From contig DATGFS010000026.1 in NCBI GenBank assembly GCA_035308905.1, forward strand, positions 1 through 64,000: a DNA stretch of 64,000 bases. The letters run 5' to 3'. Shown here piece after piece: positions 23,317-36,224 of the stretch; within the stretch, counting starts at the first letter, position 1, and every line of letters starts with the position of its first letter. A model generated the notes under the pieces. That model made no database searches. It worked only from the letters and a program-made list of their open reading frames with translations, and was not told the DNA's origin. This stretch comes from a bacterium. GTDB taxonomy: Bacteria > Sysuimicrobiota > Sysuimicrobiia > Sysuimicrobiales > Segetimicrobiaceae. The position numbers and the translations under genes were made by a program.

Positions 23317-23991
23317 TTACTTGTCGCGCATTGGCATGACCAGGGCTTCTACCTGCGCGGATTCCTTGGAATGGGAGACTACCACCTTGGTAGCCTTCTC
23401 CGAGCCGTGGAACTCGAAGCGTACCATCGGCTTATGCCCGTCATCGGCGAGCGCCGCCAAGGCTTTGAGTGTGTCCGCGAGAATGTTGGCATCGAAGGCG
23501 ATTGCGAAGGTAGGCTCATCCTTCGGCATTACCTGGTCGATATTCGGGTAGTTCCCGTCCACCGGCTTAACGGGCGTGATAGATGCGGATTGCAGGTCGG
23601 TAGACGCGAAGGTAACTTGCGCTTGTTCCATTGTGAGGGCGAGACAGCCGAGGATGGGCCGATACTTAGGCTTAGGGACGGCCTTAAACGCCTTCTTCCA
23701 GGCGTCCAGGGGGATAATCGCTTCTTGAGCGCCGTTAGCGTTGGCGTCGAATCCAGCGATGGTCGGGAAGTCTTCGGGCTTGAAAGGGGTCGGCACGGTC
23801 GCCCGAATCATCCTCGCCCCGTCCGTAGCTTCGATAATCACCCCTGCGTCAGTCGCCTTTACGTGGACACCGCATAGGGCCGAACGGTTCTCATCCTTAC
23901 TGGCAACATCTGCAACCCGTTCAAACGCTTTGGGAATCAGAATCATCTTTGCCGTGCGGGGGACTTGCGGAGAATCCTGTTCCTGTGCCAT
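23317..23991 (-). CDS. DnaN-like sliding clamp homologue, two-domain, 224 aa
   Basis: ATG 23991 follows AAGGAGG and gives MAQEQDSPQVPRTAKM. Features of the beta clamp are visible: GVHVKATDAGVIIEATDGARM (domain-II-like ATDG-x-R), AIIPLDAWKKAFKAV, PVDGNYPNIDQVMPK (the GxYPDYxxVIP element) and a C-terminal VEALVMPMR, which matches the DnaN ending. At 224 residues it corresponds to domains II and III only; chromosomal DnaN has three domains in about 370. Two-domain clamps such as PCNA and T4 gp45 are trimers, so this may form a trimeric ring for the element, or act as a decoy. Ring formation is inference. Confidence 0.75.
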   Translation of the reverse strand: MAQEQDSPQVPRTAKMILIPKAFERVADVASKDENRSALCGVHVKATDAGVIIEATDGARMIRATVPTPFKPEDFPTIAGFDANANGAQEAIIPLDAWKKAFKAVPKPKYRPILGCLALTMEQAQVTFASTDLQSASITPVKPVDGNYPNIDQVMPKDEPTFAIAFDANILADTLKALAALADDGHKPMVRFEFHGSEKATKVVVSHSKESAQVEALVMPMRDK

Positions 23992-24359
23992 CTGGTCTCG
24001 CCTCCTTTTCGTGATCTCCCAAGGGCAAGGCGAGCGTATCAAAAGGTAGCGTATGTGTCAATAGGTTCCTTATGATACAACACTAAACACGTAGAACCCG
24101 TGATATGAACGGCCTACAGAAGGATGAAGGCTGTTGGGCTCAGCCTATTTCCCTGTGAGGAAGCCTAGGGCAGCACGCGGCCTGGTACGGCGCAGCAAAG
24201 GGATCAAGACCGCATCGGGGGGGGCAGGCCCCCGGGGTGTCCCCCTGCAGACCAGGGACTGGGACCCCTTGGCGATCCGCCGCCCCCTATTGGCAAGTGC
24301 GTGAACAGAGCAACCTGGTTTTCGTGTGATACATCCGTTTTCTGGGAGGAGACAAAACC
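23992..24359. other. Divergent intergenic region
   Basis: About 370 bp between the (-) clamp gene and the (+) small-protein operon, presumably holding both promoters. It contains a run of eight G at about 24217-24224 and G/C-rich segments around 24217-24256 that can pair (GGGG...CCCCCGGGG...CCCCC). TGTGATAC appears at about 24325, 35 bp before the next start, and also twice in the 21.7 kb intergenic region, possibly a shared promoter or operator word. Confidence 0.4.
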
Positions 24360-24530
24360 ATGGTCATGATTCAGGTTGAAGAGGGGAAGGCAGAGGTGTT
24401 CGACGTGGATTTTGATCAGGCTCTATCGGCTCTGCGTTTTCTCAGAGACCGGATTCCACCAAAACCACGGACTCCATCGAGCAGAAAGACCAAGCCGGTG
24501 CGGAAGTCCGTGAGACGGTCAGGGCGATGA
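24360..24530 (+). CDS. Small beta-beta-alpha protein, 56 aa
   Basis: ATG 24360 follows GGGAGGAG; a second in-frame ATG lies two codons later. The product starts MVMIQVEEGKAEVFDVDFDQ, then ALSALRFLRDRIPP and a very basic tail (R/K-rich, ends VRRSGR). The N-terminal unit resembles those of the proteins at 20554 and 25021. Unrecognised; the basic tail suggests nucleic-acid contact. The next gene starts 4 bp after its stop. Confidence 0.65.
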   Translation: MVMIQVEEGKAEVFDVDFDQALSALRFLRDRIPPKPRTPSSRKTKPVRKSVRRSGR

Positions 24531-24534
24531 AATC

Positions 24535-24828
24535 GTGAGTGAAGCAGCCGAGAGAGAAACGACGATCACCTGGAGTGATGCTGACGGGGGGATCGCAATG
24601 GTCTGGACCGCGCAACGCTCGATGGCGAGTCGCCTCAAGAAGATCCGTGGGGCTGAGGTGGTTGAGGTCCACACGACCGAACGCGGTGACTGGACCGGCG
24701 AGACTTGGAGGGTGCCGGTCGCGGCTGTGCTTCCGAGGAACACGAGGAAAGGTCGTCCCATGACGGAGCCTCAGCGACAGGCACTCCGGCGGGCTCATGG
24801 GGCCAGGACACTTGCGGCCGTCGTCTAG
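24535..24828 (+). CDS. Hypothetical protein, 97 aa
   Basis: GTG 24535 lies 4 bp after the preceding stop. The protein contains TTITWSDADGGIAMVWTAQRSM, ASRLKKI and VVEVHTTERGDWTGETWRVP, then a basic C-terminal helix PMTEPQRQALRRAHG. The strand pattern plus W-x-V/A-x-A resembles small phage-encoded proteins of unknown function. No motif identifies a reaction. Coupled to the 56-aa gene upstream. Confidence 0.55.
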   Translation: MSEAAERETTITWSDADGGIAMVWTAQRSMASRLKKIRGAEVVEVHTTERGDWTGETWRVPVAAVLPRNTRKGRPMTEPQRQALRRAHGARTLAAVV

Positions 24829-25020
24829 AAGGGCCTCCACAGTCCCGTCCTGACCCCAAAATCATTGCTCGTGAGCAAGAAATTGGCGGCTCGGGCGTGG
24901 ACCCCGGTGTCTAGATACCCCCTGACGAGAGAAGGCCCTTATAGGACAGTTTTGTGGTTGCCACATGGGTAACCGAAAAACCCTGACGCATCCGCTGGTC
25001 AGTGAAAAGGTGGTGGAACC

Positions 25021-25365
25021 ATGCCATTCATCGCAATCTTCGATGACCAGTCAGGACGCCAGGTGGCTCGCTTCGACCTGAACGAGCCTGATGCCAAAGC
25101 GGTGCTCGGCTACGTCCGAGGCATCGCTGTGTCGCGGCAGAAGCCGAAGACCGCGCAGCAACCGCCGGGATCGCCGATGCCGGAGACGGCCGTCCGATAC
25201 CCGCAGCCTCACCAGCCGGTGTTCGGGCAGCACCCATCCACCGGAGCGGTGCCGGGCAATCTGCACCCTGCCGTTGCGTTGAATGGTCCCGGGACGGCAG
25301 GCGTCTCCAAGAACGCTCCCGACAGGTTCGCGAATCCCAAGTTCCGTCGCCAGCCGGTGAGGTGA
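25021..25365 (+). CDS. Small protein with beta-beta-alpha N-terminus and Pro-rich tail, 114 aa
   Basis: ATG 25021 follows AAGGTGG. Residues 1-38 (MPFIAIFDDQSGRQVARFDL, DAKAVLGYVRGIAVSR) resemble the N-termini at 20554 and 24360; the remaining 75 residues are Pro/Gly/Gln-rich and likely disordered. The gene lies in a run of (+) small genes separated by about 130-190 bp, each with its own Shine-Dalgarno. Function unknown; the repeated occurrence of the N-terminal unit suggests a shared binding partner. Confidence 0.55.
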   Translation: MPFIAIFDDQSGRQVARFDLNEPDAKAVLGYVRGIAVSRQKPKTAQQPPGSPMPETAVRYPQPHQPVFGQHPSTGAVPGNLHPAVALNGPGTAGVSKNAPDRFANPKFRRQPVR

Positions 25366-25493
25366 CGGGGCGTGACGTTTCACGAACGATTGAACGTGGG
25401 GCTAGGCGCTTGGCAGGAGTTGATGGGTCCGGTGACCTGCGAGAATCGGGCCCGGACCTGCCCCCCGATTTTCAAAATACTCTAACAGGGTAG

Positions 25494-26264
25494 GTGAGGT
25501 TCGTGCCCATCCTTTCGCAACCAACCCCAGGGGGAAGCCCCGCTTCGCTCGTTGCTGGTCGATCCAACATCAATCCCTTGCTGCAAAATCAGTCAGGGAA
25601 CCCGGACGTGACCTTTGGACGGCTTGGCCTTCCCTACGCCATGCCTCGTGCAGGGTCTCCTGAAGCGGCTCGGATGCCGCGAGGTGCCGGTGTAGGAATC
25701 AACTCCTCACCGACTGGAGCGGTCGAAGGTGGAGACAGCACCGTGTCTAGGATGCTGGCAAATGCGATGACGCCTCAACCAACAGGTTCCGTTCAGGCGG
25801 CCACAGGCACTCCGCCTCCTGCGGTCATGGCGCAACAGGTGGCTCCGGTGGGTCCAACCGTCCGGCCTGCTCCTCCTGTCACTCCATCGCCGCTGTCGGG
25901 GCCTGCCCCTCAGCCCGCGTCACGGCCTACGGCGGCACCTGCTCCTACAGGACAACCTGCCGGGGGTGGCACGTCGAGCGCAGTAAGGTCCGCTGCTCCG
26001 TCTGCCGCTCCTGCTATGGCCGCTCCCACCGGGGCTCCGTCTCCATGGTGGAACTCGACACCGGCTGCCGGTCAAAACCTGTCTCCAAATTGGTGGGAGA
26101 CCCAGGGCGTACCTCCGAGCGTGATGATGGATCGTTCCGAACAGGACCGACTGGGGCCTTACGGGTTTACGCAGTACAAGAGTCCCGAGGGCAAGCAAGA
26201 TACGGGAGGAACGGGTAAAGATAGCGGCACCACCGAAACGACGGGCCAAGAAGGCAACTATTAA
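25494..26264 (+). CDS. Pro/Ala/Ser-rich low-complexity protein, 256 aa
   Basis: The frame opens with GTG 25494 (MRFVPILSQPTPGG). It is dominated by Pro, Ala, Ser, Thr and Gly, especially residues 100-180, with no signal peptide or membrane helix. The C-terminal part contains two WW-type aromatic motifs, SPWWNSTPAAGQNLSPNWWE, and a polar Gly/Thr tail. Such composition is seen in phage scaffold-like and cell-surface linkers, but nothing here proves either. Codon use is consistent with translation, yet the start has only a weak Shine-Dalgarno. Confidence 0.5.
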   Translation: MRFVPILSQPTPGGSPASLVAGRSNINPLLQNQSGNPDVTFGRLGLPYAMPRAGSPEAARMPRGAGVGINSSPTGAVEGGDSTVSRMLANAMTPQPTGSVQAATGTPPPAVMAQQVAPVGPTVRPAPPVTPSPLSGPAPQPASRPTAAPAPTGQPAGGGTSSAVRSAAPSAAPAMAAPTGAPSPWWNSTPAAGQNLSPNWWETQGVPPSVMMDRSEQDRLGPYGFTQYKSPEGKQDTGGTGKDSGTTETTGQEGNY

Positions 26265-26389
26265 CGCGTGAGCCACAAAAGGAACCATCGGGGAGTGGAG
26301 ACAATCGTCTCTGCTGCCCGAGCGCGTCACGGCGAGACGGAGAGAGAACGGCACCTCCACACACTCAGGTCACATAAGGAGAAGTAGTC

Positions 26390-26617
26390 ATGGCCTCCCC
26401 TGACGATCTGCGCAAGAGAAAAGGTAGAGGTGAGAAAACAACGATTGAACGGATGCTGGAAAAAGGAAGAGGCTCTTCGGAGCACCCTGGCGTAGAGGCT
26501 CCCTATCCAAAGGTTCCGGGGTCTCCGGATCAGCCCGGTGGAGAGCCGGACAGGGGAAAGGGTCCGGGCCGTTCGGATCAGCCCCAAGGATTTTCGTCCA
26601 CGGCGTCGAATAAGTAA
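26390..26617 (+). CDS. Small disordered basic protein, 75 aa
   Basis: ATG 26390 follows AAGGAGAAG. The first 30 residues (MASPDDLRKRKGRGEKTTIE, RMLEKGRG) are basic and helical; the rest is Pro/Gly/Asp-rich with repeated PGSPDQPGG/GRSDQPQG units. Unrecognised. It is the last small gene before the integrase, which begins about 210 bp downstream. Confidence 0.5.
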   Translation: MASPDDLRKRKGRGEKTTIERMLEKGRGSSEHPGVEAPYPKVPGSPDQPGGEPDRGKGPGRSDQPQGFSSTASNK

Positions 26618-26827
26618 GGGCACCCCCGGTTTTTAACCTGCACCTGCCCAGGCGAAATGTTGGCAGGAGCCCACGCAAGCACCTCTGCGATCCTACCGAC
26701 CAGGAGTTGTCCCGTGCCTCCCGTTGAGGCACACGGGACGGGTCCCCCCGTGTCCTCTCCATCCAAGGAACGCTCCACCGTCAATCGAAACCTCTCTCCC
26801 GCAGCGCTTCGAGCGCGGGGGTGGGCG

Positions 26828-27934
26828 ATGCCAGGGCATATCCGAAAGTTCCGGAAGTATCACGTTCTTCGGATTCACATCGGGCACAGGAAGTACCGAG
26901 ACTACTACTACCGAACCCGTCAAGAGGCCGAGGCCGCGCAGGCAGAACTAGCGACCCATGTGCGGGCGCACTCCTCGGGTCTCGGCATCGCCGGGAGTCC
27001 CAAAGAGCGATTGGCACCGTACCTGCATGACTGGCTCGACCTGCGCCGAGGGCGACTCTCCCCGAAGACCGCAGAGCGATACGACTCAATGATTACACGG
27101 ATTGGGAAAGACCCGCTCGGCAGCCTGCTCCTACACCGCGTCTCCAGTCGCTCCCTCGAAGCGTTCTATGTACGGCTTGGGGAGCGGGGACTGTCGGCGA
27201 CGACAGCCCATCACTACCACCGCTTTTTACACAAGACGCTCAGAGATGCTGAGCGGCAGGAATTGATCCGCCAGAACCCGGCGCACCTGGCTGAGGGGCC
27301 ACGGCGCACACAAGCACGACCGGAGGTCTGGACAGAAGCGCAGGTCCATTTGTTCCTGAGCGAAGCCCGCGAGCGAAGCCAGCACTATCCGCTGTACTTG
27401 TTCTTAGCCGCCACAGGGTGCCGCCTGGGAGAGGCCCTGGCGCTTCACTGGACAGACGTGGACCTGAGGGAAGCGGACGTGACGATCCGCTCTTCGCTCG
27501 TGAGGCCGCGCGGCGGCGGATACGTAGTGAAGACTCCAAAGACCCGCAGTTCGGAACGATGCGTCGGGATCCCTCAGGAACTTATCGAGTGCTTGAAGGC
27601 GATGCCCAGACGGGGAGAGTTTGTCTTCTCGCGGCGGGACGGTGGGCCGCTCCACGCGAACAATCTGCGACGGCGCGACCTCCAGAAACTGTGGGAGAAA
27701 AGGTTGGATGGCACTCCGTCATCGTTGACAGCGATGTCATGGAGGCGGGCCCTGCACAACCTCAGACACTTTCATGCCTCGTATCTCCTCCAGCAAGGTG
27801 CCAACGTGCGGGCCGTCTCGGAGAGACTGGGGCACCGAACAGCATCATTCACACTGAACACCTACGCTCACGTCATCCGCCGGAAGGACGCGACCACGGG
27901 GATGATTGCGGAGTTTCTGGCGCGATCAGTGTGA
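26828..27934 (+). CDS. Tyrosine recombinase/integrase of the element
   Basis: A 368-residue phage-type integrase. ATG 26828 starts MPGHIRKFRKYHVLRIHIG, the usual opening of the arm-binding (AP2-like) domain; the frame is open further upstream, but that stretch has no integrase character. A SAM-like core-binding domain (LAPYLHDWLDLRRGRLSPKT) is followed by the catalytic domain with Arg in GCRLGEALALHW, Lys in VKTPKTRSSER, HNLRHFHAS (HxxR), LGHRTAS and the nucleophile in NTYAHV. All catalytic positions are intact. It lies 1.6 kb inside attR and is the obvious enzyme for integration into tRNA-Lys. Confidence 0.95.
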   Translation: MPGHIRKFRKYHVLRIHIGHRKYRDYYYRTRQEAEAAQAELATHVRAHSSGLGIAGSPKERLAPYLHDWLDLRRGRLSPKTAERYDSMITRIGKDPLGSLLLHRVSSRSLEAFYVRLGERGLSATTAHHYHRFLHKTLRDAERQELIRQNPAHLAEGPRRTQARPEVWTEAQVHLFLSEARERSQHYPLYLFLAATGCRLGEALALHWTDVDLREADVTIRSSLVRPRGGGYVVKTPKTRSSERCVGIPQELIECLKAMPRRGEFVFSRRDGGPLHANNLRRRDLQKLWEKRLDGTPSSLTAMSWRRALHNLRHFHASYLLQQGANVRAVSERLGHRTASFTLNTYAHVIRRKDATTGMIAEFLARSV

Positions 27935-28072
27935 AGGATGCGCCCCATCCAGCCAGGCCATGTATTTCAAGGCCAGGCGAAGGGTTGCTAAGATCTAACA
28001 GCGTGGATTGTGGTCGTTGCTGGATCTCAGTTAAGCAATCAGTAGGGTCGTTCGTGGGGTGAGGGGACCGCC

Positions 28073-29320
28073 ATGAACACCGTAATCGTCTTAGTCAGCC
28101 TTTTCGCCCTGCTGGTCTTCGTCGCGTGGATCATAGACAATGCGAAGACCGCCAAAGTCTATCGCACCCTAAGGCCGAAGCTCGACAATCTTGAAAACCA
28201 GGAACAAGCCTTCAAGAATCAACAGGCTGATTGGGCGCGAAAGCTTGAAAACCACGAACAAGCCTTCAAGAATCAACAGGCTGATTGGGCGCGAACTCTT
28301 GAGGCAGAGAAGTTCGAATGGGCTCGGAAGATCGAGGCGGACAAGAAAGCTATTGAGATGATCGCGCACGAAAAATCCGTGGGTTTCCCCTGGCTGGCAG
28401 AGGCGTATGCGGACTACTTCCACCTGCTGGACATGAAAGAATCGAATTACCTACGGCACAAATCGCATCCAGCCGTGAAATCAGCGCAGCAAGTTCGTGA
28501 AATCGCACAGCAGCGGCGAATCGCCGAAAAGACATGGCGTGTTCTGAAGTATCAACTCAAATATTACGAGGAACTCTTCCCATTCTTGGTCGAGTTCAAA
28601 GAAGAGGCCATCGACGACCTCATTCGTCAACTGACGACAGGCACTCCACAGCCAGAAGCGGACGACGAAGATCCGGTAAGGCACTGGTTGACGCAGGCCG
28701 AGTACAGCAGTCTTGCGTCAGCAACAAGAAACCAGCTGGCGCTCGACCGGTATTGGCGAAGGAAGAAGTCCTCCTGGGAACTGGGCCGGGACTACGAGCG
28801 GTACATTGGCTATCTGTATGAAGTTGACGGGTGCCGCGTGTTCTACCAAGGCATCATCGAGGGGTTCGCAGATCTTGGTCGAGACTTGGTGGTTGAACAC
28901 CCTAGCGGCCAAATCGAAATTATCCAGTGCAAATACTGGTCCCAGGACAAGCTCATCCACGAGAAGCATATCTTTCAACTCTACGGCACCCTGGTTGCGT
29001 ATCGGATCGACCATCCTCAGTCCCAGGTTTCCGCCACCTTCGTGACCTCCACGGCTCTGTCGGACAGGGCCAACCAATTTACGAAGGCTCTAAACATACG
29101 TTCCTTGCAACACCAGCCCTTAAAGCAATATCCTTGCATAAAGTGCAACGTGTCGCAGAGGGACGGCGAGAAGATCTACCATCTTCCTTTTGACCAGCAG
29201 TACGACAGGACACTGATCGGGCACCACAAGCTGGAGTGCTATTTGACGACCGTGGCAGAGGCTGAACGACTTGGATTTCGCAGGGCCTTTCGCTGGCACG
29301 GAGATTCTGCGGCGTTGTAG
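28073..29320 (+). CDS. Membrane-anchored restriction-endonuclease-like protein with coiled coil
   Basis: A 415-residue protein: one N-terminal TM (VLVSLFALLVFVAWII), a charged coiled coil with an exact tandem duplication (residues about 40-75), a helical middle region, then a PD-(D/E)XK-like core (FADLGRDLVVEHPSG and EIIQCKYWS: Asp plus Q-x-K). The C-terminus has CIKC, GEKIYHLPFDQQYDRT and AEAERLGFRRAF, matching the short IYHxP...YDxT...EAExxGFR domain seen at the ends of some secreted nucleases. Membrane anchoring recalls the Mrr-like protein at 16866. It is the last gene before attR, a common place for defence cargo. Confidence 0.75.
   Translation: MNTVIVLVSLFALLVFVAWIIDNAKTAKVYRTLRPKLDNLENQEQAFKNQQADWARKLENHEQAFKNQQADWARTLEAEKFEWARKIEADKKAIEMIAHEKSVGFPWLAEAYADYFHLLDMKESNYLRHKSHPAVKSAQQVREIAQQRRIAEKTWRVLKYQLKYYEELFPFLVEFKEEAIDDLIRQLTTGTPQPEADDEDPVRHWLTQAEYSSLASATRNQLALDRYWRRKKSSWELGRDYERYIGYLYEVDGCRVFYQGIIEGFADLGRDLVVEHPSGQIEIIQCKYWSQDKLIHEKHIFQLYGTLVAYRIDHPQSQVSATFVTSTALSDRANQFTKALNIRSLQHQPLKQYPCIKCNVSQRDGEKIYHLPFDQQYDRTLIGHHKLECYLTTVAEAERLGFRRAFRWHGDSAAL
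28190..28297 (+). repeat. Tandem 54-bp duplication in the nuclease coiled coil
   Basis: Two adjacent 54-bp units (28190-28243 and 28244-28297) encode LENQEQAFKNQQADWARK and LENHEQAFKNQQADWART, nearly identical at DNA level; a degenerate third unit (LEAEKFEWARK) follows. The in-frame duplication lengthens the coiled coil between membrane anchor and nuclease. Confidence 0.9.
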
Positions 29321-30291: not shown

Positions 30292-31131
30292 CTACTCGGA
30301 AGGGACGTCCGGTCGGACGAAGGTGAAGCCGAACCGTCCCTTGACGCAGAGGTGGCCGCGCGTCACGCTGTGGTCCGAAGGCGACGTGACCTTGACGATC
30401 CGATTGTCCTGCACGTGCAGCTCCAAGGCGCAGCCGACGCCGCAGTATGGGCAGATCGTCTCGGTGATATGCTGCCGTGGTTCGTCCCACTTCCCCGCCT
30501 GCCGCATGCGGTGTTCGATCAGCGGCATCAGCGCTCCCGTCGGACACACGGCCACGCAGTTGCCGCAGAACACGCAGCGGGAGTCGAGCAGCGGTGCGTC
30601 TGCCCCGGTGTCGATCCGCGCGGCGAACCCCCGGCCGGCGACCGAGAGGGCGAACGTAAATTGCGCGTCGTCGCCGCAGGCTTCGACGCATTTGTAGCAG
30701 AGGATGCACTTCTCGTACTCGCGCACGTAGAGGTCGTTGTCGTCGCGTAACGGGTCCTCCACCCGGCGCACGCCGGCTCCAAAGCGCATCGGGTCCCCGC
30801 CGTACTCCGCGAGGTAGGCCCGCAGGTCAGGCGCCGTGGACGTATCCACCGATGAGGCCAGCAGCTCCAGGACCACCTTCCGCGCCCGCCGCACCCGCTC
30901 GCTGCCGGTGCGGATCTGCATGCCGGCCTCGACGCGGCGGGAGCAGGAAGGAACGAGGGCACGGCTGCCCGCGAGTTCCACGACGCAGACCCGGCAGACG
31001 TTGATCGGCGTCAGGTTTGGATGGTAGCAGAGGGTCGGCGTGTCGACGCCGGCGCGCCGCAGCGCCTGCAGGATGGTCGTCCCTTCCTCCGCCTCCACCG
31101 GCCGCCCGTCGACTTCGACCGTCAGGCTCAC
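30292..31131 (-). CDS. Formate dehydrogenase iron-sulfur subunit (detached N-terminal half of FdhA)
   Basis: GTG 31131 follows GGGAGGAG and overlaps the upstream stop (GTGA). The 279 residues contain, in order, a [2Fe-2S] domain (CYHPNLTPINVCRVC...PSC), two [4Fe-4S] ferredoxin motifs (CILCYKCVEAC, CVFCGNCVAVCP) and the molybdopterin-oxidoreductase [4Fe-4S] motif ICPYCGVGC...GHLCVKGRFGF. In FdsA/FdhA-type enzymes these are fused upstream of the molybdopterin domain; here the protein stops right after GRFGF. The catalytic part is encoded three genes upstream. It should carry electrons between the Mo/W site and the NADH module. Confidence 0.88.
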   Translation of the reverse strand: MSLTVEVDGRPVEAEEGTTILQALRRAGVDTPTLCYHPNLTPINVCRVCVVELAGSRALVPSCSRRVEAGMQIRTGSERVRRARKVVLELLASSVDTSTAPDLRAYLAEYGGDPMRFGAGVRRVEDPLRDDNDLYVREYEKCILCYKCVEACGDDAQFTFALSVAGRGFAARIDTGADAPLLDSRCVFCGNCVAVCPTGALMPLIEHRMRQAGKWDEPRQHITETICPYCGVGCALELHVQDNRIVKVTSPSDHSVTRGHLCVKGRFGFTFVRPDVPSE

Positions 31132-32351
31132 GGCACTCCTCCCGCGATCTCGAGCGCGCTCAGCACCGCGCCGGACGCCGTCTGCCCCAGCCCGCAGATG
31201 GACGCGTCCGTCATGGCCGCGCCGACCTCCCGCAGCAGCGCGGCGTCCCCCGGCCGCGGCTGCCCGGCGGCCAGGCGCGCGACGATCTCCCACTGCCGCT
31301 GCGTGCCGACGCGGCAGGGGACGCACTGCCCGCACGATTCTTCCTGGAAGAAGCGTGCCACGCGCAGGACGACGTCCCAGACCGCGGCCGTCTCGTCCAG
31401 CACGATCACCGCGCCCGAGCCGACCGTTCCCCCGGCGGTTCGCAGGTCTTCGAACGTCAGAGGCAGGTCCAGCCGCTCCGGCCCGAGGAACGTGCCGGCC
31501 GCACCGCCACACAGGACGGCCTTGAGGTGTCGTCCCTGCCAGACGCCGCCGGCGAGCGCGAGCAGTTCGCGCAGCGTGGTGCCGAACGGAACCTCATACA
31601 CTCCGGGGCGCGCGACGTGGCCGCTCAGGCAGAAGAGCTTCGTGCCGGCCGACTGTTCCGTACCGCAGCGCCGGAACTCCGCCGCGCCGTCCCGCACCAC
31701 GAGGGGCACGGCGCAGAGCGTTTCCACGTTGTTGACCAGCGTTGGGTCGCCGAAGAGGCCGGCCTCGGTCGGGAACGGGGGCTTGTTGCGCGGCTCGCCC
31801 CGTCGCCCCTCGACCGAATTGAAGAGCGCCGTCTCTTCCCCGCAGATGTAGGCGCCGGCACCCCGGAAGACCCGGATGCGAAAGGCCCGGCCCGAGCGGG
31901 CCACGTCGGCGCCGAGGAGTCCGGCGTCCTCGGCCTGCGCGATCGCGTGCCGCAGACGTTCCGCGGCCAGATGATACTCGCCGCGGATGTACACCAACCC
32001 TTCCTCCGCCCCTACGGTCAGGCCGGCAATGGTCATCGCCTCGACGACCGCGAACGGGTCTTCCTCCATCAGCACGCGGTCCTTGAACGTGCCGGGTTCA
32101 CTCTCGTCAGCGTTGCAGACGACCCGCCGCCGCCCCCGCGCCCCGGCCACGGCGCGCCACTTACGGCCGGCGGGGAAGGCGGCGCCGCCCCGTCCGAGCA
32201 GGCCCGACGCGTCCAGTTCCGACAGCACCCATTCGGCGCCGCGCTCGACGGCCTTCGTCAGGGCGCCGTAACCGTTCGCCCCACGGTACCCGGCCAGGCT
32301 CTGGGGGTCCACTCGGCCGGCGCGCGCAAGCAGCCGCCGGACCTCAGGCAC
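31128..32351 (-). CDS. NAD-dependent formate dehydrogenase, NuoF-like beta subunit
   Basis: A 407-residue FMN and NADH-binding subunit (FdsB/HoxF/NuoF type). Visible: GRGGAAFPAGRKW (FMN/NADH loop), CNADESEPGTFKDR, GAGAYICGEETAL, and the [4Fe-4S] motif SCGQCVPCRVG with the fourth Cys in ICGLGQ. GTG 32351 overlaps the NuoE-like gene by 8 bp and its stop overlaps the iron-sulfur subunit start. The set FdhA, NuoE, NuoF identifies a soluble NAD+-coupled enzyme. Confidence 0.92.
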   Translation of the reverse strand: MPEVRRLLARAGRVDPQSLAGYRGANGYGALTKAVERGAEWVLSELDASGLLGRGGAAFPAGRKWRAVAGARGRRRVVCNADESEPGTFKDRVLMEEDPFAVVEAMTIAGLTVGAEEGLVYIRGEYHLAAERLRHAIAQAEDAGLLGADVARSGRAFRIRVFRGAGAYICGEETALFNSVEGRRGEPRNKPPFPTEAGLFGDPTLVNNVETLCAVPLVVRDGAAEFRRCGTEQSAGTKLFCLSGHVARPGVYEVPFGTTLRELLALAGGVWQGRHLKAVLCGGAAGTFLGPERLDLPLTFEDLRTAGGTVGSGAVIVLDETAAVWDVVLRVARFFQEESCGQCVPCRVGTQRQWEIVARLAAGQPRPGDAALLREVGAAMTDASICGLGQTASGAVLSALEIAGGVP

Positions 32352-32874
32352 CGGCGGATCCTTTCGCCGCCGCGGCGATTTCCTCAACCGTAGCGTGCCG
32401 GTGCAGGCGCCCGGCGACGGCGGCGACCGGCGCGTGGTCGCACTGGCCGAGGCAGGGGACGGTCTCCCACTCGACGGCGCAGGCTCGGCCGGCGGCCTGC
32501 GCCCCGTGGGCCTCACCGGTGAAGCGCCGGGCCGGCCCGTACCGCGCTTCGAGCGCTTGGAGCAGCGAATCGGCGCCGCGCAAACGGCAGGGGACGTCGT
32601 CGCAGACGTGAACGGCCGCTCCGCGCGGCGGCTCGAGCCGGAACAGCGCATAGAAGGTGGCCACACCCCAGACGTCGGGGAAGGACAGGCGCATCTTGTC
32701 GGCGAGCAGCTCGAGCGCGCCCTTGGGAAGCCATCCGAGGGAGGCTTGAATCTCATGGAGCAGCGGCAGGAGATCCGACCGACGAGGGTCGGCGCCGAGC
32801 CGGGCGAGCGCGCGGTCGACCGTCGCCCGCTCATCGTCCGCGACGGCGTGCGGGGGATTGCGCTCAGTCGGCAT
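32344..32874 (-). CDS. NAD-dependent formate dehydrogenase, NuoE-like gamma subunit
   Basis: A 176-residue thioredoxin-like [2Fe-2S] protein. The helical N-terminus (LLPLLHEIQASLGWLPKGAL, VATFYALFRL) and the Cys pattern CDDVPC...CLGQC match NuoE/FdsG. ATG 32874 overlaps the end of the catalytic subunit gene by 11 bp. It passes electrons between the NuoF-like flavin site and the iron-sulfur chain. Confidence 0.9.
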   Translation of the reverse strand: MPTERNPPHAVADDERATVDRALARLGADPRRSDLLPLLHEIQASLGWLPKGALELLADKMRLSFPDVWGVATFYALFRLEPPRGAAVHVCDDVPCRLRGADSLLQALEARYGPARRFTGEAHGAQAAGRACAVEWETVPCLGQCDHAPVAAVAGRLHRHATVEEIAAAAKGSAGA

Positions 32875-34828
32875 GGGCGTGCGCCTCCTCGCCGACCTGT
32901 TCCTCGCTCCACGCGCCGCGCGACGCGACGCGCTCGACCGCGATGGCCGTCGCCTTGAACTCCGCGGTCCCCGACTTCGGATCCCAGGCGTCGATCGTCA
33001 GCACGTTGGTCGGCACGATCTCCGGATGGTGCAGCGTCATGAAGCAGAGCCCCGGCGCCAGCGTGTCGTCCGGCTTCGCCGGCACGAGCACCGAGGCGCG
33101 CCGGGATCGCACTCGCACCAGGTCCCCCTCGTTGATCCCGAGCCGCTGCGCGTCCTCGGGCCACATGCGCAGAAACTCCATTTGCGGCCGGGCCGCCGCG
33201 TAGCCGCGCGATTGCGTGCCGGTGTTGTAGAACTCCAGTTTCCGCCCGGTCGTCAGCAGGAAGGGGTACGTGGCATCCGGCTGCTCCACCGGAGGCTCCC
33301 AGTCGACGGGCATGAAGGGCGCGGGTTTGCCCGGCACCGGCCGCTGCCACAGGCGCTCGTGCAGGAAGAGGGTGCCGGGATGGCCCTCCTCGGGGCACGG
33401 CCACTGCAGGCCCCCGCACTCGGCGAGCCGCCGATATGACATGCCGCGGTGCCTCGCCGAGACCCGGCGCACCTCGTTCCAGACGTCTTCCGCGCCGGCG
33501 TAGCCCCAGTCATGGCCCATCCGGCCGGCGAGAGCCTGGAGGATCATGATGTCGTCGCGCGCCTCGCCCGGCGGGTCGAGGGCCTTGCGCATCAACTGCA
33601 CGCGCCGCTCCGAGTTGGTCACCGTCCCCCCGCACTCGCACCACGACAGCGCGGACGGGAGGACGACGTCGGCGACGTCGGCCGTCTGCTGCAGCACAAC
33701 GTCTTGCAGCACGATGAACTCCAGGCCGCCGAACAGCGCGCGGCACCGTACCTGGTTCGCTTCAGACATGAGCGGATTCTCGCCGATGATGTAGGCGGCG
33801 CGGATCTCGCCCGTCTCCATGCCTTCGAACATCAGGCTCTGGTGCAGCCCCCGCTTCGACGGAAGCGCTGCCCCCCACGCCGCCTCGAAGGGGGCGCGCT
33901 GCGCCGGGTTCTCGACGTCCGCTCCCCCGGGCAGGCGGTTGGGGATCGCGCCCATGTCGCCGCCGCCCTGCACGTTGTTCTGGCCGCGAAGCGGGTCCAG
34001 GCCGGATCCGTAGCGGCCGACATGGCCGGTGAGGTTCGCGAGGTTGCACAGCGCGTACACGCCGTCGGTCGCGTTGTGGTGCTCGGTGATGCCGAGCGTC
34101 CAGCAGATGATCGCGCGGGGCGCCGCGGCGTACATCCGGGCGACCTCGCGGATCGTGGCGGCGGAGACGCCACTGACGCGTTCGGCGAACTCGGGAGTGT
34201 ACGAGGCGACTTTCTCACAGTATGCGGCGGCGTCCTCGGTCGCGTGCTCGATGAACTCCCGGTGCTGCAGCCCCTCGTCGAGGATCACATGCCCGATGGC
34301 GTTGGCCAGGGCGATGTCGGCGCCGACGCGGATCTGGAGGTGCAGATGTGCGAGCTCCGCCGTCGGCGTCCGCCTCGGGTCGACCACGATCAACCTCGCC
34401 CCGTTGCGGATCCCCCGGAGCATGTGATGAAACATGATCGGGTGCGTCTCGCGCGGGTTGGATCCCCACAGGAACAAGAGATCCGTCCGCTCCAGCTCTT
34501 CATAGGACGTTGTGCCGCCGCCCGCGCCGTACACCGTCTCCAGACCGGAGACGCTCGGCGCGTGTCAGGTCCGGTTGCAGCTGTCGATGTTGTTGGTGCC
34601 GATCACCGTCCGCATGAACTTCTGGGCGACGAAGTTCACTTCGTTGGAGGCCTTCGAACAGCTGAAACAGCAGAAGGCGTTCGGGCCGTGGGCCCGCCGG
34701 ATCTCTTCGAAACGCCGCGCCACCAGATCCAACGCCTCGTCCCAGGTCGCGCGCTCGAGGCCGCGGGCACCTCGGACAAGAGGGTGCGTCAAACGCGCCA
34801 GCGGGCGTTGATAGCCTCGTGCCGGCAC
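32864..34828 (-). CDS. fdhA: Formate dehydrogenase catalytic subunit, selenocysteine-containing
   Basis: Reads as one 654-residue protein if the TGA at 34565-34567 is decoded as selenocysteine (residue 88). GTG 34828 follows GGAGGTG. The sequence around the TGA, DSCNRT-U-HAPSVSGLE, is the active-site motif of formate dehydrogenases, where Sec or Cys ligates Mo/W. Downstream are LFLWGSNPRETHP, VVDPRRT, GRYGSGLDPLRGQNN, ADVVLP and the C-terminal dinucleotide-binding segment with YNTGTQSRG. It lacks the usual N-terminal [4Fe-4S] domain, which is in the gene at 30292. Oxidises formate to CO2 with NAD+, or the reverse. Needs SelA, SelB, SelC and SelD from elsewhere. Confidence 0.92.
34535..34567 (-). 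promoter_or_regulatory. Sec codon and bacterial SECIS hairpin
   Basis: TGA (34567-34565) is followed by 11 nt and then the hairpin CGTCTCC-GGTCT-GGAGACG (34553-34535), 7 bp with a GGTCT loop. Spacing and the GGUCU apical loop match the E. coli fdhF SECIS recognised by SelB. Confidence 0.88.
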
Positions 34829-35030
34829 GCGTCACCTCCGGTTGCGCGAGCATCCGGTTCCTTCGTCCGAACCGTCTCCGCTGAGATTCCGTCTTGTTGC
34901 CTGCAGTCCTCTCGCGGTCGAACCCGAGAGCCCGTTGGAGGACCCGGGCGCACAGAGAACGGATTTCTCCCGGTCTACGCGAAACTACCGCGAGCCTAGC
35001 CCGCAAGGCGGGCAGCCCGGGGGGGGGGAA
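34829..35030. other. Divergent intergenic region with a 10-G run before the next start
   Basis: Holds promoters of the formate dehydrogenase operon (-) and the enolase-superfamily gene (+). GCCCGC-AA-GGCGGGC near 35000-35014 forms a hairpin. Ten consecutive G at 35019-35028 end two bases before ATG 35031 and overlap the position of its Shine-Dalgarno, so slippage could alter translation. Confidence 0.5.
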
Positions 35031-36224
35031 ATGCTTGTGAAGATCACGCGCATCGACTGCCACGTCTTGCTCGACCCCGGGATGGACGTTCGCGCCACCA
35101 GCTCCGCCCAAGACGACTTGGTTGTCGAAATACACACCGATGAAGGTCTTGTCGGGATAGGGGAAAGCGATCTCAACCCCTGGATCGCTCGCGCGTGCAT
35201 CGAGGCGCCCGGCACGCATGCGATGGGCCTGGGCTTGCGCGAGATGCTGATCGGCCAGGATCCGCTTCAAGTGGAGGCTCACTGGGAGCGGTTGTACGTG
35301 GGCTCGGCGATGAACGGACGCCGCGGCGCCGTCATCCACGCCCTCGGGGCGCTCGACATTGCACTCCACGACCTTCGCGGCAAGGCGCTCGGTCGGCCTT
35401 GCCACGCGCTGCTCGGCGCATCCCGTCCGGATCCCGTCGTCCCCTATGCCTCTCTGCAACCGGACGTCTCCGATTTCGACGCGTACCTTGTGTCCGTGGT
35501 CGAATGGGCGCGCGAGGCGAAACGTGTGGGGTTTCGGGCCGCGAAGCTTGAGATCACGCCGGCGGGTCCCTACGCTCACAAGGGCCTGCGCGCGCCGTAC
35601 GAGCGGATGCGCGAGCCGATTGCCGCGGTCCGGGATGCTGTCGGATCTGAGTTTACGATCATGGTTGACGTCCAATATGCTTTCCCGGACGCCGAGACCT
35701 GTTTGAAGACGATCCGGGGTTGGGACGAATATGGCGTCTATTTTCTCGAGACGCCTCTGCCCTCCGACGATCTCGCGGGGTACGCCCGCGTAAGCCGCGA
35801 ACAGCCGATCCCGATTGCCGCCGGGGAGTGGTTGGCTACCCGCTTCGAGTTCCTCGAGCTCATGGAGCGGGGCCGCGTGCGGGTCGTGCAGCCCGATGTG
35901 GGCCGCGTGGGGGGCCTGACCGAGGCGCGCCGGGTGTGCGGGTTGGCGGCGCAGCGGGGTTTGACGATCGTGCCTCACGCGTGGAAGACCGGGATCTCAA
36001 TCGCCGCCGCTGCTCATCTGGCGACCGTGACCCCCAACTGCGCGTTCATCGAATTTCTCCCGGCCGAACTGTGCGAGTCGGCCTTGCGGCGTGACCTCGT
36101 CCGCCGCGGGCCTCGGATGGTGGACGGCGTCATCAGCCTGCCCGATGCGCCGGGTTTGGGCATCGAGTTGGACCGGGATGCGCTTGTGCGGTTCGAAGAG
36201 ACGGCCGCACGAGCGGCCCGCTGA
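35031..36224 (+). CDS. Mandelate racemase/muconate lactonizing enzyme family protein
   Basis: A 397-residue enolase-superfamily enzyme that abstracts an alpha proton from a carboxylate. The N-terminal capping domain (ITRIDCHVLLDPG, EIHTDEGLVGIGESD) is followed by the barrel with metal ligands in MVDVQYAFPD (Asp), FLETPLPSDD (Glu) and IAAGEW (Glu), then VQPDVGRVGGLTE and a catalytic His in VPHAWKTG. The His-Asp dyad points to the mandelate-racemase subgroup, whose members are mostly sugar-acid dehydratases. ATG 35031 is chosen because it directly opens the capping domain; the frame is open further upstream. Confidence 0.88.
   Translation: MLVKITRIDCHVLLDPGMDVRATSSAQDDLVVEIHTDEGLVGIGESDLNPWIARACIEAPGTHAMGLGLREMLIGQDPLQVEAHWERLYVGSAMNGRRGAVIHALGALDIALHDLRGKALGRPCHALLGASRPDPVVPYASLQPDVSDFDAYLVSVVEWAREAKRVGFRAAKLEITPAGPYAHKGLRAPYERMREPIAAVRDAVGSEFTIMVDVQYAFPDAETCLKTIRGWDEYGVYFLETPLPSDDLAGYARVSREQPIPIAAGEWLATRFEFLELMERGRVRVVQPDVGRVGGLTEARRVCGLAAQRGLTIVPHAWKTGISIAAAAHLATVTPNCAFIEFLPAELCESALRRDLVRRGPRMVDGVISLPDAPGLGIELDRDALVRFEETAARAAR

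Follow-up and report, generated by a model that had tools for sequence, protein, structure and literature searches.

In a 64,000-nt stretch of a Sysuimicrobiota genome (contig DATGFS010000026.1, positions 1 to 64,000; the window), we found a four-gene operon that very probably encodes a soluble, NAD(P)-linked formate dehydrogenase (FDH) of the FdsABG type, with its alpha subunit split by gene fission, its gene order permuted and its active-site cluster supplied in trans. The catalytic gene, here called fdhA′, carries an in-frame UGA codon for selenocysteine (Sec). Its start falls at the point where an N-terminal [4Fe-4S] domain would normally be complete, and that domain is encoded three genes away.

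The fdhA′ gene (32864-34828, minus strand) runs from a GTG at 34828, preceded by GGAGGT at 34839-34834, to a TGA stop at 32864. It encodes 654 aa with the Molybdopterin and Molydop_binding domains (Pfam PF00384 and PF01568) and without the N-terminal Fe4S4 domain. A single TGA (34567-34565, minus strand, codon 88) interrupts the frame between 34828 and 32864, in the context DSCNRT-TGA-HAPSVSG. When the protein was aligned with E. coli FdhF (FDH-H; 39% identity), its best match in the PDB, codon 88 fell on Sec140, and the active site, U88-H89 plus R281-G-Q, corresponded to U140, H141 and R333 of FdhF. This alignment begins at FdhF residue 60, while that to FdsA of Rhodobacter capsulatus runs from residue 300 onward. 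The dN/dS ratio is about 0.12-0.19 upstream as well as downstream of the TGA; thus, both sides are protein-coding. A first-pass annotation of this DNA was right to place an in-frame TGA at the Sec/Cys position of an FDH with the frame kept, and its coordinates for the TGA and the following hairpin are correct. Its description of 32864-34828 as a selenocysteine FDH stands as regards Sec, but does not cover the whole enzyme, whose N-terminal Fe4S4 domain is encoded at 30292-31131; the split of the catalytic subunit had been overlooked. We also considered a global reassignment of TGA and rejected it, as fdhA′ itself terminates with TGA as a true stop.

Eleven nucleotides after the UGA lies the SECIS hairpin (34535-34553, minus strand), made of CGTCTCC (34553-34547), the loop GGTCT (34546-34542; GGUCU in the RNA) and GGAGACG (34541-34535). 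The genome record of E. coli fdhF, which we read directly, has its TGA at codon 140, the 11-nt spacer, the GGTCT loop and the same codon register as fdhA′, confirming the likeness in spacing and loop proposed previously. The hairpin in the window differs from the fdhF SECIS in having no bulge. Folding of the region as a single sequence gave -17.7 kcal/mol, with z = -1.2 relative to shuffles, which is weak evidence for the SECIS. Comparison across loci gave strong evidence, including covariation. Among 94 Sec loci, the seven stem pairs were formed at 92%, versus 76 ± 1.4% (maximum 81%) in 300 synonymous-codon resamples that kept the protein, and the GGTCT loop was present in 92 of them. Four stem pairs showed double-sided changes (C-G/G-C, G-C/A-T/T-A, C-G/T-A and C-G/A-T), and just 0.3% of the synonymous versions of fdhA′ combined 7 pairs with the GGTCT loop. 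The outermost pair is not conserved, and therefore the shared helix is 6 bp. The perfect 7-bp hairpin reported in the first-pass annotation is thus present in fdhA′, but as a conserved element it is one pair shorter, since the first pair varies. In total, the TGA and an fdhF-like hairpin recur in about 100 genomes, with compensatory changes.

The genome (4.0 Mb, an 81-contig draft, 97% complete) encodes the complete Sec machinery that had been predicted from the window. Both selB and selC, whose absence had been named as contrary evidence, are present. SelA was matched with an E-value of 3e-140 and SelB with 6.6e-93, above its cut-off; the two genes adjoin on contig C33. The tRNA-Sec gene (selC, anticodon TCA) was detected by both Rfam and ARAGORN about 1.7 kb further, in the same cluster. 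SelD was matched with 2e-116, and selD (contig C3:79138-80058, minus strand) contains its own in-frame TGA, close to the 5′ end and where Sec would be expected (MVACAG-TGA-ASKLSPTD). This brings the selenoprotein genes of the genome to at least two. An FDH with Sec and an fdhF-like SECIS is textbook biology, and fdhA′, judged from its sequence, is a normal SelB-dependent selenoprotein gene that on its own represents known biology. Its UGA would be decoded as Sec in the cell.

The arrangement of the enzyme is different. Compared with the catalytic chain of an ordinary FDH, fdhA′ is missing ~55 residues at the start, which form the Molybdop_Fe4S4 domain. It is followed by a gene for a NuoE/FdsG-like, thioredoxin-type [2Fe-2S] subunit (32344-32874, minus strand; PF01257), which overlaps it by 11 nt, and then by one for a NuoF/FdsB-like diaphorase subunit with FMN and a [4Fe-4S] cluster (31128-32351, minus strand; PF01512, PF10589 and PF10531), overlapping nuoE by 8 nt. 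The last gene (30292-31131, minus strand; PF13510, PF12838 and PF04879) overlaps nuoF by 4 nt and encodes a NuoG/HoxU-like head subunit, with a [2Fe-2S] and two [4Fe-4S] clusters followed, at the C-terminus (residues 222-272), by the Molybdop_Fe4S4 domain absent from fdhA′. Pfam detects PF04879 on the head protein with an E-value of 1.6e-20, and not on the catalytic protein. From these overlaps of 11, 8 and 4 nt, we infer that the four genes, in the order catalytic part, NuoE, NuoF and head plus Fe4S4, are likely translated in series. The head aligns to FdsA residues 28-303 and fdhA′ to 300-949, so that jointly they cover it without a gap and the break falls at about 300-303. Residue K264 of the head corresponds to K44 of E. 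coli FdhF.

Conservation across loci agrees with this assignment. The four Fe4S4 cysteines (cluster A1) and the Lys44 equivalent are invariant, with the domain at the C-terminus, in all 64 complete heads. Cys 91, 96, 141 and 145 of the NuoE-like subunit are invariant in 77 loci, and Cys 344, 347, 350 and 390 of the NuoF-like subunit in 70 (numbering of the stretch 31128-32363). An Fe4S4 domain directly upstream of the catalytic gene was sought and was absent in every split locus. AlphaFold2 models were of low confidence, with pLDDT values of 50 for the catalytic body and 57.5 for the head. Five further Molybdop_Fe4S4 genes are found elsewhere in the genome, on contigs C24, C32, C48 (two) and C60, and presumably belong to other molybdoenzymes or NuoG.

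Among the closest known systems is FdsABGD of R. capsulatus (PDB 6TG9), with which the operon shares NuoE-, NuoF- and NuoG-head-like parts and a bis-MGD catalytic domain; clusters A1, A2, A3, A5, B6 and G7 are expected from the conserved cysteines. As in FdsABG-type enzymes, the NuoE-like and NuoF-like subunits are encoded in the same operon as the catalytic part. In contrast to FdsA, a single chain in which the NuoG-like head is fused to the catalytic domain and Cys386 is the ligand, the window enzyme has two chains encoded by separate genes in permuted order, and a Sec ligand. The catalytic chain also lacks the N-terminal Fe4S4 domain that characterizes Mo/W bis-MGD FDHs. Unlike FdsA, the window-type heads have no A4 cluster motif (absent in 66 of 66). 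This loss is not unique to split heads, as the chain in 7VW6 is also without those residues in the alignment, and in the R. capsulatus enzyme A4 lies off-path, at the dimer interface (PMC7171172). No counterpart of FdsD was noticed in the operon, for which no dedicated search was made. E. coli FdhF (PDB 1FDO/1AA6) shares the Sec-His pair, the Arg-Gly-Gln motif, the spacer and the loop, but has the Fe4S4 domain (residues 1-59) within its catalytic chain; the 39% identity refers to the remainder.

Our model suggests that the first gene provides the bis-MGD catalytic body, with UGA 88 read by SelB and tRNA-Sec at the fdhF-type SECIS. The last gene would provide a NuoG-like cluster wire, whose C-terminal [4Fe-4S] domain (A1) and lysine normally sit next to the molybdenum within the same chain. 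The catalytic body and the head are predicted to associate, docking to rebuild the FdsA fold and active site, as operon structure and conservation indicate. In the FdsABG homologue, formate is oxidised at the bis-MGD molybdenum and electrons exit via A1 and follow the clusters of FdsA to reach FdsB and FMN (PMC7171172). By analogy, electrons would flow here from formate to Mo, A1, A2/A3, the [2Fe-2S] cluster, the NuoF cluster, FMN and finally NAD(P)+. Formate as the substrate and the use of Mo or W are likewise proposed from sequence, and NAD(P) is assumed to be the acceptor from the homology of NuoE and NuoF.

We weighed three other explanations. One is that fdhA′ is a pseudogene or the product of a sequencing error, the TGA having arisen from a Cys codon by nonsense mutation. 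The assembly is indeed an 81-contig draft, and the single-sequence folding energy is not significant. However, TGA occupies the site in all 80 of the best loci (from a scan with one genome per species), in 52 close matches from a survey of 400 Chloroflexota genomes, where the two close matches without TGA begin after codon 88, and in 39 of 43 full-length close matches from Actinomycetota. Together with the coding constraint flanking the TGA, the covariation of the SECIS and the complete Sec machinery, this conservation refutes a pseudogene, the probability of which we consider close to nil; an assembly error was rejected because the TGA is conserved across independent genomes. A different specificity, for example nitrate reduction, is slightly less improbable, as there are also matches to the NasC and NapA models. 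Against it, the Fdh-alpha model is by far the best (647.6 bits, with a cut-off of 666.25 and its first 51 positions unmatched), the best PDB match is FDH-H, and U/H...RGQ is class I of the FDH active sites (PMC8808070), making another substrate very unlikely.

The remaining alternative accepts the split and supposes that the body works without the Fe4S4 domain of the head, through another electron route, while the head and NuoEF form a separate diaphorase. Some MopB enzymes are reportedly without the N-terminal cluster (PMC10100899), and at several loci other DNA lies between both parts. Nevertheless, the heads always end in an intact Fe4S4 domain with a lysine that is important for the activity and cluster retention of FDH-H: among replacements of Lys44 in the E. 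coli enzyme, only Arg retained activity (7%), and two variants lost more than 90% of the cluster (PMC12176258). Moreover, the Fe4S4 domain has no other evident use, and in the window the genes overlap. We consider this alternative improbable, if less so than the other two, and favor the two-chain FdsABG-type enzyme.

The split order is present in all nine Sysuimicrobiota genomes, from two families, that carry a closely related gene. In two other families of Sysuimicrobiales the form is fused, and the site is occupied by TGA in five cases and by Cys in one. In one other family of this order, the fused Sec-FDH (L049-L053) resembles the window enzyme in its TGA, GGTCT hairpin and NuoE/NuoF partners, but a single chain of ~970 aa combines its head, Fe4S4 and catalytic domains, with the UGA at about codon 380-397. 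Split loci were also found in Chloroflexota, Actinomycetota, Acidobacteriota, Rokubacteria, Eremiobacterota, Dormibacterota, Planctomycetota, Gemmatimonadota and Bacillota; the arrangement occurs in at least eight phyla. Among the 80 best loci, every non-Bacillaceae locus with sufficient flank has the order body, NuoE, NuoF and head/Fe4S4. In some, mostly from Chloroflexota, ~1-4.5 kb of other DNA separates the catalytic gene from nuoE; thus, strict co-translation is not universal. On plasmids, we found no close relative, the best match being 41%.

In a maximum-likelihood tree, the split genes formed one clade (99% SH-aLRT), requiring one change only, and this clade persisted after adding further Actinomycetota. 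Its sister is the fused Sec-FDH of Bacillaceae. In the Neobacillus and Mesobacillus representatives (L065, L082, L093, L102, L106 and L125), the catalytic body is 54-56% identical, with the TGA and a conserved hairpin; the Fe4S4 domain is fused before it, and the flanks gave no NuoEFG hits. About 10 TGA-containing FDH matches from Actinomycetota are single pieces limited to residues ~11-480, and one of them, L187 (genome G476), has its Fe4S4 domain fused and branches with the sister clade from Bacillaceae. Two records titled Klebsiella pneumoniae (L122) and Clostridiales (L054) contain split Sec-FDH genes branching with other phyla, and both MAGs are probably mislabelled.

We had supposed that all split members use Sec, and abandoned this because the four full-length Actinomycetota members without TGA carry Cys (TGC/TGT). 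They form one nested clade, still split, which has reverted from Sec to Cys. None of the four has the GGTCT loop, showing instead GGACT or GGGCT with 4-6 of the 7 pairs left; the association of loop loss with Cys gave a Fisher p of 4e-6, not corrected for relatedness. SelA is absent from three of the four Cys genomes and present in all five Sec genomes tested alongside. The basal Cys member, L184 (genome G819), has the codon TGT, the loop GGGCT and a retained SelA, and looks like an intermediate of the reversion. This nested clade, in which the loop was lost and SelA too in three of four, offers a natural test of the SECIS constraint.

Other features surround the operon. A sliding-clamp-like ORF (23317-24042, minus strand; DNA_pol3_beta), a tyrosine integrase (26657-27934) and an Mrr-type restriction endonuclease (28073-29320) lie next to it, and suggest that 23317-29320 belongs to an integrated mobile element. 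On the other side, a run of ~10 G at 35019-35028, just before the ATG of a mandelate-racemase-like gene (35031-36224), could be phase-variable or assembly-sensitive.

A keyword search of open-licence PMC papers, among them 2026 reviews of FDH and of the selenoproteome, a phylogeny of MopB and the paper on Bacillus ForCE, found no description of a split FDH catalytic subunit; an earlier one outside these papers is possible. Annotation may miss such enzymes, as the UGA truncates the gene and, without Fe4S4, the read-through protein scores just under the Fdh-alpha cut-off. A natural two-part FDH may be of use for engineering CO2 reduction and for studying the Fe-S wire separately from the Mo/Se body. 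We also put forward, as a doubtful proposal, a widespread FDH clade with a two-chain active site, the Mo/Sec body in one chain and the proximal [4Fe-4S] cluster and lysine in the other. There, the split would have shifted the UGA, which in a fused, cluster-loaded chain lies at about codon 390, to codon 88 of a short chain. We hypothesize that failed read-through would then cost no more than an 87-residue peptide, and would never produce a dead-end head able to occupy NuoEF. The split itself implies that the cluster domain beside the molybdenum can come from another chain, in an arrangement stable over at least eight phyla.
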